NCBI GenBank assembly: GCA_018969845.1
Contig: JAGWXP010000002.1
Coordinates: 1-52,910 of the forward strand
DNA from: Lysobacteraceae bacterium
GTDB taxonomy: Bacteria > Pseudomonadota > Gammaproteobacteria > Xanthomonadales > Rhodanobacteraceae
Direction: 5' to 3'
Length of the DNA: 52,910 bases
Shown here: positions 983-19,387 of the stretch, one piece after another
Layout: the number at the start of each line of letters is the position of its first letter
Numbering within the stretch: position 1 is the stretch's first letter
Translations under genes and position numbers: made by a program
Notes under the pieces: generated by a model
Told to the model about the DNA's origin: nothing
Seen by the model: the letters and a program-made list of their open reading frames with translations, nothing else
Databases searched by the model: none

Positions 983-1127
983 GGGAACCTCTGATTAATC
1001 GTCGCGAGCGATGAGAATTTGCGGGTCGCCGGAGCGCAGGAACCGGAGTTTACTCGCATGTAAATGAGGATTCCGAGCACCGCCGGCACGCAAATTATCG
1101 AGCGCAGCAGATTAATCAGAGGGTTCC
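983..1127 (+). repeat. Structured repeat element copy E1 (imperfect palindrome, variable-arm family)
   Basis: Ends GGGAACCTCTGATTAATC / GATTAATCAGAGGGTTCC are inverted; inner AATTTGCG (1016-1023) / CGCAAATT (1089-1096); 109-nt core aligns gap-free to reverse complement of the 16012-16120 core. Confidence 0.85.
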
Positions 1128-15636: not shown

Positions 15637-16026
15637 TCAGCAGGTCTCGAACGCGTTGCGGATCCAGTCGAACTGCGGTTGTTGCGGCGTGCCGCTGCAA
15701 CCGACCACGTCGAACCGGCATGCCCGGGAGGCGCGGCGCGGATGCGCCAGAAGCCAGACCTGCGCGGCGCGCAGAAGTTTCGCGCGCTTGCCCGCGCCGA
15801 CCGACGCCACGCCGCCGCCGTGCGCGGCAGCGTGGCGGAAGCGCACTTCCACGAACACGGTGCAATCGCGGTCGGCCATGACCAGATCGATCTCGCCGAG
15901 GCGGCAAACGAAATTGCGTGCCAGCGTGCGCAGCCCCGATTGTTGCAAATGCGCCTCGGCCACGCTTTCCCAGGCGGCGCCGGTGCCGCGTGCCGATCCC
16001 ATCTCAAAATCTGCTGCGCTTGGCAT
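15637..16026 (-). CDS. yraN: YraN family (UPF0102) protein; start may instead be 16002
   Basis: GEIDLVMADRDCTVFVEVRFRHA nuclease-like motif; both candidate start codons lie in repeat E2. Confidence 0.9.
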   Translation of the reverse strand: MPSAADFEMGSARGTGAAWESVAEAHLQQSGLRTLARNFVCRLGEIDLVMADRDCTVFVEVRFRHAAAHGGGVASVGAGKRAKLLRAAQVWLLAHPRRASRACRFDVVGCSGTPQQPQFDWIRNAFETC

Positions 16027-16134
16027 CTTGCACGCCGGCTGTGCTCGGAATGCTCATGTACGCAAAAGTACACTCCGCTTCCTGCGCGCAGGCGACGTGC
16101 AATCTGCCATCGCTCGCGACGATTTTGAAATGGG
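15998..16134 (-). repeat. Structured repeat element copy E2 (same family as 983-1127)
   Basis: Arms CCCATCTCAAAATC / GATTTTGAAATGGG (13/14 complementary); 109-nt core 16012-16120 aligns gap-free to E1. Confidence 0.85.
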
Positions 16135-16140
16135 CTCTTG

Positions 16141-17976
16141 TCACTGCGGCGCAGCGCTGGTCTGCAGGCCGCCGGCGACGGGGTGCGCTGCCCCGTTGTC
16201 GAACTGCGCCCAGGTGAGCAGGCGTTGCACGCGGCCGAGCCGATCTTCGGCGAGTTGACCGGTCGCGCCCGGCAGGTAGCTGTCCGGATGCTGCGCCAGC
16301 CAGTCCATGTACGGCAGCAGCCGGTACGCATCCATTCCCATCGCGAACAGACGGCCGCCGGCGCCGCGCGCGCTGTCGAGTGCGCGCACGATGTCGTCGT
16401 GCCTGGGCAGACCGAGTGTCGCATCGAACAGCCAGGGCGCGTCGCAGAATTGCACGCCGTCCAGATCGCGATCCAGGCCCGGGTTGTAATTGCCAGCATA
16501 GATGTGCGATGTCGCGAACACCGGCAGGTTCGCATAACCGGCTAGCTTGAGCTGCGGCAGCAGCAGACGTGCCTGTTGCGGGCGCATGCTGATGAAGATG
16601 CCGGTGTCCATCGGCGCGGCGGGCGTAGTCGTTGCGGCCGGCGCTGCGCCGGGCAGGGCGGGTGCAGAAGCCGAGGTCGGCACGCTCGCCAGCGTTTGCC
16701 GGATCATGGTCGAATAATTCACTTCGCCGTCCGTGACGCGTGCCTCGCCCAGGATCTGACCGTTACGGCTCTCGAATTGTGCGCGAAATGCCAGCGCGGC
16801 GCGTTCGGCCCAGTCCTCCGTGGCGGTGATCACGACCGCATGCGTGATGCCTTGTTGGAGCATGCGTTCCGCGGCCTGTGCGGCTTCGACGTCCGGGCTC
16901 AAGCCGAAGGCGGCGCTGCCCGGCGGCGGCGTCTGCGCGCCGTCGGGCTGGTTGAGCGCGAGCACCGGCACCGGGAGATTGCCTTGCGCGAACACGGCCG
17001 ATACGGCGTCACGGGCGAGCGGGCCGACGATACGGTCCGCTCCGTCGGCGACGGCTTTGCGGTAGGCGGCGACCGCGTCCGCGGGCGTGCTGCCGGTATC
17101 GTAAACCGTGATGGGCGCGCGTTGTCCCGTGTCGTCGGCAAAATAGGCGGCAAAGAATCCGTCGCGCACCGGTTGCGCCACGGCCATGAGCGGCCCGCTT
17201 TCGGGCAGCAACAAGGCGATGCGTCGGGCCGGTGCGTAACCCTCGCGCTGTGGCGGTTGCGCGCCTTGCGGGATCAGCGTACCGACTGGCTGGTTCGGAT
17301 GCAGAACGACGACCGGCAAAGCGCCGCCATTGGCATGCAGTGCCTGATCGATCCAGGGCCGCAACGGATCGCCCGGCTGCAGGGCGGCGGCTTCGTTGCG
17401 CAGTGCCTCCGGGTTCATGGATTTGAGCGTGGCGACGATCTGCACCTCGTTCTGCGCGCGGTCGTTGCCGCCTAGCAGGCGGTCGAGATCGGCGCGCGTA
17501 CGCGCGCTGTCGAGCGCGTCGCCTTGTGCGGCTTGCGCGCGGGCGCGCAGTTCGAGCGCGCGCATGCGCAAGGGCGCGGCCAGACCGGCATCGGCAAAAT
17601 GCAGCCTCGTCAGTGCGCCGGCTGCGTCGTGCCGGGACAGCGCGACTTCCGCTGCGAGCAGGTCGTAGCGGACGGGTTCGTCGCCCTGCAGGCCGCGGCG
17701 GCGGATATCCGGCAGCATACGCGCGACCGCGTCGATTTCGCCGTTCTGCAGATACGCTTCCGCGGCACGCAGGCGATAGAAGGCGCCGTCGCGCGGGTGG
17801 GCGTCGGCCAGTGCCAGGAAATCGCGTGCGGCCGCGTCGAAATTTCCCTGACGGTAGGCGTGGTCGGCGGCGACGGCATCGGGCGCCTCCGGCCGCGGCG
17901 CGCCGACCTGCGCGCAGCCGGCCATGAGGACCGCTGCGCAGCAGAACAAGACAGGCAACCCGCGTCGCACGATCAT
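16141..17976 (-). CDS. lpoA: Penicillin-binding protein activator LpoA-like lipoprotein
   Basis: Lipobox VLMAGC; TPR-like N-terminal half, periplasmic-binding fold IALLLPESGPLMAVAQPVRDGFFAAYF... Confidence 0.88.
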   Translation of the reverse strand: MIVRRGLPVLFCCAAVLMAGCAQVGAPRPEAPDAVAADHAYRQGNFDAAARDFLALADAHPRDGAFYRLRAAEAYLQNGEIDAVARMLPDIRRRGLQGDEPVRYDLLAAEVALSRHDAAGALTRLHFADAGLAAPLRMRALELRARAQAAQGDALDSARTRADLDRLLGGNDRAQNEVQIVATLKSMNPEALRNEAAALQPGDPLRPWIDQALHANGGALPVVVLHPNQPVGTLIPQGAQPPQREGYAPARRIALLLPESGPLMAVAQPVRDGFFAAYFADDTGQRAPITVYDTGSTPADAVAAYRKAVADGADRIVGPLARDAVSAVFAQGNLPVPVLALNQPDGAQTPPPGSAAFGLSPDVEAAQAAERMLQQGITHAVVITATEDWAERAALAFRAQFESRNGQILGEARVTDGEVNYSTMIRQTLASVPTSASAPALPGAAPAATTTPAAPMDTGIFISMRPQQARLLLPQLKLAGYANLPVFATSHIYAGNYNPGLDRDLDGVQFCDAPWLFDATLGLPRHDDIVRALDSARGAGGRLFAMGMDAYRLLPYMDWLAQHPDSYLPGATGQLAEDRLGRVQRLLTWAQFDNGAAHPVAGGLQTSAAPQ

Positions 17977-18908: not shown

Positions 18909-19270
18909 ACGGAGTCGGCCAGACAGCCGCGTCATCCGCGAGGATGCCGAGGAAAGTCCGGGCTCCACAGGGCAGGGTGCCAGGTAACGCCTGGGCGGCG
19001 CGAGCCGACGGAAAGTGCAACAGAAAGATACCGCCGATGGCCGGGCATTTTTCGGAATGTCGGGATCAGGCAAGGGTGAAATGGTGCGGTAAGAGCGCAC
19101 CGCGAGTCCGGCAACGGACCGGCACGGCAAACCCCACCCGGAGCAAGACCGAATAGGGGAGCAATGGCGCGGCCCGCGTCGCTCCCGGGTTGGTTGCTAG
19201 AACGCCGCGGCGACGCGACGTCCAGAGGAATGGCTGTCCACGACAGAACCCGGCTTACCGGCCGACTCCA
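18909..19270 (+). ncRNA. rnpB: RNase P RNA, bacterial type A
   Basis: GGAGTCGGCCAGACAGCCGC 5' end, GAGGAAAGTCCGGGCTCCACAGGGCAGGGTGCCAGGTAACGCCTGG core, ACAGAACCCGGCTTACCGGCCGACTCC 3' end pairing with the 5' end. Confidence 0.96.
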
Positions 19271-19387
19271 CTTTTCCATTTATTTATTTATGTATAAATA
19301 TACAATGCGTACACGGCGCATTCGCTTGGTCCGGTTTTGTTGCATAGCAACATAAATTATCACCGGGTGTTGCCAAGACCGGCTTCG

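Follow-up and report, generated by a model that had tools for sequence, protein, structure and literature searches.

Two palindromic hairpins beside nrdR and yraN belong to a dispersed family, probably a MITE moved in trans by IS5-family transposases

The window, i.e., the whole 52,910-nucleotide stretch of DNA analysed here, carries two copies (E1 and E2) of what is probably a non-autonomous palindromic MITE of about 143 bp, moved in trans by IS5-family transposases and built around a conserved structured core. In the mechanism we propose, the outer arms of about 16-17 nt would act as terminal inverted repeats (TIRs) and be bound in trans by IS5-family (DDE) transposases, whose genes lie elsewhere or were present in the past; insertion would occur at short T/A-containing targets, TNA in Xanthomonas and Dyella and CTAG/TA-like in Rudaea; the stop codons TAA and TGA would serve as targets, their duplication restoring the stop and letting the insertion survive; and, between the TIRs, a conserved asymmetric hairpin would be selected for the folding of its + strand. 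One half of the element is already catalogued, as sX9; the complete element, including its ends and its behaviour, appears not to have been described as far as we searched, and a text search of papers for its sequence found none.

E1, E2 and their family

984..1127, + strand: E1, a complete hairpin element, assigned to the family by BLAST and covariance model
984..1000, + strand: left outer arm of E1, a putative TIR (GGAACCTCTGATTAATC), pairing with 1110-1127 and resembling the IS5-family TIR GGAACCTCTGAACAACG
1001..1011, + strand: 5' foot of E1 (GTCGCGAGCGA), nearly invariant in the family alignment; GTAGCGAGCG in many relatives
1034..1079, + strand: conserved tip of E1 (GCGCAGGAACCGGAGT-stem-loop-ATGAGGATTCCGAGCA), with two asymmetric internal loops
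1102..1110, + strand: 3' foot of E1 (GCGCAGCAG), nearly invariant in the family alignment
1110..1127, + strand: right outer arm of E1, a putative TIR, with the SD-like AGAGG upstream of nrdR inside it
992..1065, - strand: half of E1 matching Rfam RF02228 (sX9) at 28.3 bits, E=0.002, for a curated score of 44
15995..16137, - strand: E2, a complete hairpin element by BLAST and covariance model, with an empty site in the sister genome G007
16121..16137, - strand: left outer arm of E2 (GAGCCCATTTCAAAATC), complementary to 15995-16011
15995..16011, - strand: right outer arm of E2 (GATTTTGAGATGGGATC), with an ATG (16002-16000) inside it

E1 is flanked by glyA (stop TGA at 978-980) and nrdR (GTG at 1130), and E2 by a minus-strand lpoA-like gene (stop at 16141-16143) and yraN. 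Each of them is one long hairpin, both strands of which fold far better than shuffled sequences (z from -7.3 to -8.2). The first-pass annotation of this DNA had placed both copies correctly and had counted 84 identities over a gap-free core of 109 positions; this count is confirmed over the same span, the core as we align it being identical at 85/110 positions, also without gaps. It had also described outer arms that differ in sequence between E1 and E2 and yet are self-complementary within each copy, the inner stem behaving likewise, which is indeed what we see. Its coordinates needed small corrections: the arms are at 984-1000/1110-1127 in E1 and, on the minus strand, at 16137-16121/16011-15995 in E2; E1 ends 2 nt, and not 3 nt, before the nrdR GTG, while the SD-like AGAGG does lie in the right arm.

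The existence of a family, proposed from these two copies, is borne out: a BLAST search of its own genome (a draft of 238 contigs) with E1 retrieved E2 (E=3.6e-22) and over 20 other copies, all dispersed, and the covariance-model search found about 26 full-length copies. Copies are present in every one of the 16 genomes of the genus, to which Rudaea cellulosilytica belongs, and the occurrence outside the genus is patchy. A pattern scan of public genomes with the tip, the most conserved block of the family (1034..1079 in E1), gave, among the matches listed, Xanthomonas, Dyella, Rhodanobacter, Rudaea, Stenotrophomonas, Pseudomonas oryzihabitans, Deefgea, Formivibrio, Gallionella relatives and others. 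Covariance-model matches reached 89 in R. cellulosilytica, 77 in Formivibrio citricus and 26 in X. hortorum, some of them being opposite-strand hits to the same copies. Searches of plasmid and phage records gave no match and viral contigs a single hit, so no vector was found. Elsewhere in the window, 18911-19273 (+ strand) matches the bacterial RNase P class A RNA at 308 bits.

Mobility, ends and candidate transposases

In sister genomes at about 90% identity, the same gene neighbourhoods are found without the element, as clean empty sites (e.g., for E2 and for the loci L002 and L017); such insertion polymorphism is a hallmark of MITEs. The outer arms are part of the inserted DNA in these comparisons and are thus not borrowed from the target, and the clean sites indicate that the whole hairpin is mobile, outer arms included. 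At yraN, the empty site in G007 reads GTGACCGCACG, in which a GTG start and the TGA stop overlap; the window has the element placed after the TGA, and the likely new yraN start is the ATG at 16002-16000, supplied by the 3' arm of the element.

The 16-17-nt arms are conserved within subfamilies, as the TIRs of a MITE would be. Xanthomonas and Dyella copies have a 16-nt TIR, GAGCGGCTAACAAAAC, bordered by TNA on both sides; the left and right TNA are the same in 13 of 26 copies, for an expectation of 5.9 and a maximum of 11 in 200 shuffles, with T at 96% and A at 92% in the left flank positions. Duplications of the TNA/YTAR type, another MITE trait, are thus clear in Xanthomonas and Dyella; outside these genera, duplications are weakly enriched, above shuffles at several lengths. 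The first-pass annotation had remarked that no target duplication was visible, which holds at E1 and E2 but not for the family; its argument that a MITE should show conserved ends and target duplications consequently no longer counts against a MITE, since each subfamily keeps its own ends and TNA duplications do occur, in Xanthomonas and Dyella copies.

A second MITE, about 445 bp long, and larger elements carry the same TIR, GAGCGGCTAACAAAAC, with perfect 3-bp duplications in 7/11. This 445-bp family occurs in X. hortorum and Xanthomonas sp. LMG 31884 (L318-L327), some copies being interrupted by IS5, IS110 or IS3; pairs of the Xanthomonas TIR 1.6-1.9 kb apart, considered as autonomous copies, were rejected, as they are MITEs interrupted in this way. 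We also searched for an IS bearing the Xanthomonas TIR GAGCGGCTAACAAAAC and found none.

A candidate partner comes from an X. hortorum IS of the IS5_4 family (NF033581, 342 bits), whose TIR, GGAACCTCTGAACAACG, is identical at 15/17 positions to the Rudaea arm consensus GGAACCTCTGAATAACC. Left arms match such IS TIRs at 12/17 positions or more in 31 of 67 copies (99.9th percentile of shuffled arms, 12; inner-stem control, 1/67), a similarity that concerns one arm subfamily only, that of Rudaea. Related ISs, whose ends are of the GGAAGGTCTGAACAAG type and whose flanks read CTAG/CTAA, occur in three members of the genus; in one of these, G004, an IS5_4-family IS abuts an element, its right end facing the left end of the element across a bare TAA (L334, G004:C405:450-730). 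We infer that an IS5-family transposase moves the element. No autonomous IS with the exact TIRs of the element was found, nor was an IS5_4 homologue in its own draft genome; IS copies are often missing from draft genomes. In all-against-all clustering of the proteins encoded around 115 loci, neither a transposase nor any other linked gene recurred. Several more arm types, AACCTATCTCAAAAC, GAAGCTGTTTTCAAATC and TACATAGCGACATAAATC (L145, L131, L179, L113 and others), occur without a matching IS.

Position relative to genes

The first-pass annotation favoured a cis-acting structured leader RNA for the downstream gene, spread by copying, with a mobile element carrying a hairpin as its other option. 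The leader reading draws on the strong covariation described below and on the fact that E1 gives an SD-like AGAGG and E2 a start codon. Indeed, E1 and E2 sit at the start codons of nrdR and yraN (the E2 arm itself holding the likely yraN ATG), but the family as a whole does not lie at starts: among copies with called neighbours, an element end falls within 6 nt of the stop codon of a flanking gene in 62/142, while only 2/45 and 4/91 of the genes starting beside an element have their longest-ORF start within 6 nt of it, the genes having been called with a codon-usage script that may be wrong in single cases. Nor is the shared polarity towards the downstream gene, proposed from these two copies, a rule of the family, since 60 tandem gene pairs run against the + strand of the element and 20 with it; E1 and E2 have the minority orientation, and this misled the first reading. 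Position and orientation thus track stop codons and not starts, with a majority polarity opposite to that of E1 and E2; the conserved folding strand is antisense to most flanking genes, the neighbouring genes share no common function, and in sister species the same gene has no element beside it. We therefore consider a leader RNA very improbable; of the two options, it is the mobile element that stands.

For the MITE that we prefer, we propose that insertions just behind a stop codon are harmless and survive, TAA and TGA being TNA targets and the stop being restored by the duplication. The stop-restoring duplication, together with the loss of harmful insertions, may explain the stop-codon bias, which selection would then account for; cases adjacent to TAG fit a CTAG/TA target and not TNA. 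Insertions on stop codons can also give the next gene a new ribosome-binding site or start codon, as at E1 and E2.

Folding of one strand and likeness to known elements

One has to keep in mind, in reading the pairing statistics, that the copies are related, and that covariation and mispair numbers therefore overstate independence. With this in mind, 95.1% of the cells pair across 67 distinct copies, both sides change in 33/50 pairs, and double-change cells amount to 445, for 124 in shuffles and at most 78 with partners slid; the compensatory change noticed between E1 and E2 is thus confirmed at the scale of the family, as is the importance of folding, here that of one strand. The varying pairs belong to the outer arms but also to the inner stem and the tip (e.g., columns 31/116 and 67/81) and cannot be explained by the symmetry of the terminal repeats alone. 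On the + strand, G.T mispairs exceed A.C ones (304 vs. 67 overall, 140 vs. 64 without three fixed columns), and columns with a G.T excess outnumber those with an A.C excess (23 vs. 7, p=0.005), whatever the direction of the neighbouring genes. As this excess implies that folding of the + strand is conserved, the data point to selection on + strand folding of the asymmetric core hairpin; neither the inner-stem and tip covariation nor the G.T/A.C asymmetry is predicted by a model with TIRs only. The folding of the core would benefit the element and not the flanking gene, a host- or transposase-binding hairpin being one conceivable role. The family thereby offers a tractable transposable element whose inside, and not just its ends, is structurally constrained over a wide taxonomic range.

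Covariation could also arise without selection if the palindrome corrected itself by intra-strand template switching at replication, one arm being rewritten from the other; this would match the arms in any sequence, and the whole element is a near-perfect palindrome. Template switching should, however, erase the mismatches and internal loops that are conserved and persist over a wide phylogenetic distance, and it does not account for G.T exceeding A.C on one strand; it could contribute, but we regard it as an unlikely source of the whole pattern.

About as unlikely, in our opinion, is a REP/RAYT-like mobilisation, in which the + strand would move as folded single-stranded DNA by means of an HUH/Y1 transposase that recognises the unpaired GTAG/GTCG at the hairpin's foot. 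The tagged foot, the asymmetric internal loops and the selection for one-strand folding do resemble the GTAG/CGTC-tagged REPs (PMC3733652), and the element further shares with REP/BIME palindromes a dispersed distribution and a position after stop codons. It is, on the other hand, 140 bp and not 20-40 bp long, has TIRs and target duplications, and shows no link to a RAYT gene: Y1_Tnp is above the cut-off in 3/16 genomes of the genus and absent from the element's own genome and from copy-rich relatives, and of the five Y1 loci, four are without a significant element match and the fifth has a weak 68-nt hit. TNA target duplications are a DDE signature and not an HUH one, REP/RAYT movement leaving none, and we saw no replichore (lagging-strand) bias of insertion in G070, the one genome with a placeable origin (dnaA at position 1).

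Like IS5-family MITEs, with which we prefer to class it, the element is short and dispersed, has no ORF, and shows TIRs, a 3-bp TNA duplication and empty sites; it differs from them in that its interior is a single hairpin, conserved and covarying in Beta- and Gammaproteobacteria alike, and in that its outer arms vary by subfamily. ERIC, YPAL, NEMIS and similar repeats are long imperfect palindromes, stem-loops of about 130-170 bp found near genes and thought to be non-autonomous. They have been cited as MITEs (PMC3733652). Their likeness to the element is one of general description, and the host range seen for the element is much wider. Finally, given the stop-codon geometry, we considered an identity with integron attC sites. 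These are long imperfect palindromes just past a stop codon, with variable stems and a bottom strand that folds, whereas the element occurs as dispersed single copies flanked by TNA duplications; the idea was dropped as inspection of the Rudaea arms found no RYYYAAC/GTTRRRY core sites.

The Rfam match bears on an existing catalogue. The full 76-nt sX9 model is found on the minus strand of Xanthomonas copies at 84-104 bits, with 38-54 matches per Xanthomonas genome, and copies from Gallionella relatives are also above the curated score. As sX9 is one arm on one strand, filed as a small RNA gene, and the element a 140-bp palindromic mobile repeat, this suggests that the sX9 "small RNA" family represents one half of a mobile hairpin with dispersed copies, with consequences for sRNA catalogues and target predictions; sX9 ranks among the 20 most prevalent bacterial sRNAs (PMC9029176).

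As a tentative extension, which we hold possible but rather doubtful, the family could be a modular mobile hairpin, with one ancient constrained core and interchangeable terminal repeats, its lineages parasitising different IS5-family transposases (hence different TIRs and duplications); the conserved tip, also present in at least one unrelated scaffold (the G006 nrdR site and contig C128 of its own genome), would then be functional in its own right.

Two further arrangements were also observed. A 226-bp composite, with an extra hairpin within the stem, is present in the element's own genome (C158:9312-9537, L055) and in many copies in R. cellulosilytica; as it occurs many times, it seems to be mobile itself. 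The same tip motif (GAACCGGAGT..ATGNGGATTC) stands on a different hairpin scaffold at L095 (G006:C24, about 1687-1720) and, in the element's own genome, at C128:13124-13179 (L026); the G006 scaffold occupies the glyA-nrdR junction, as E1 does.
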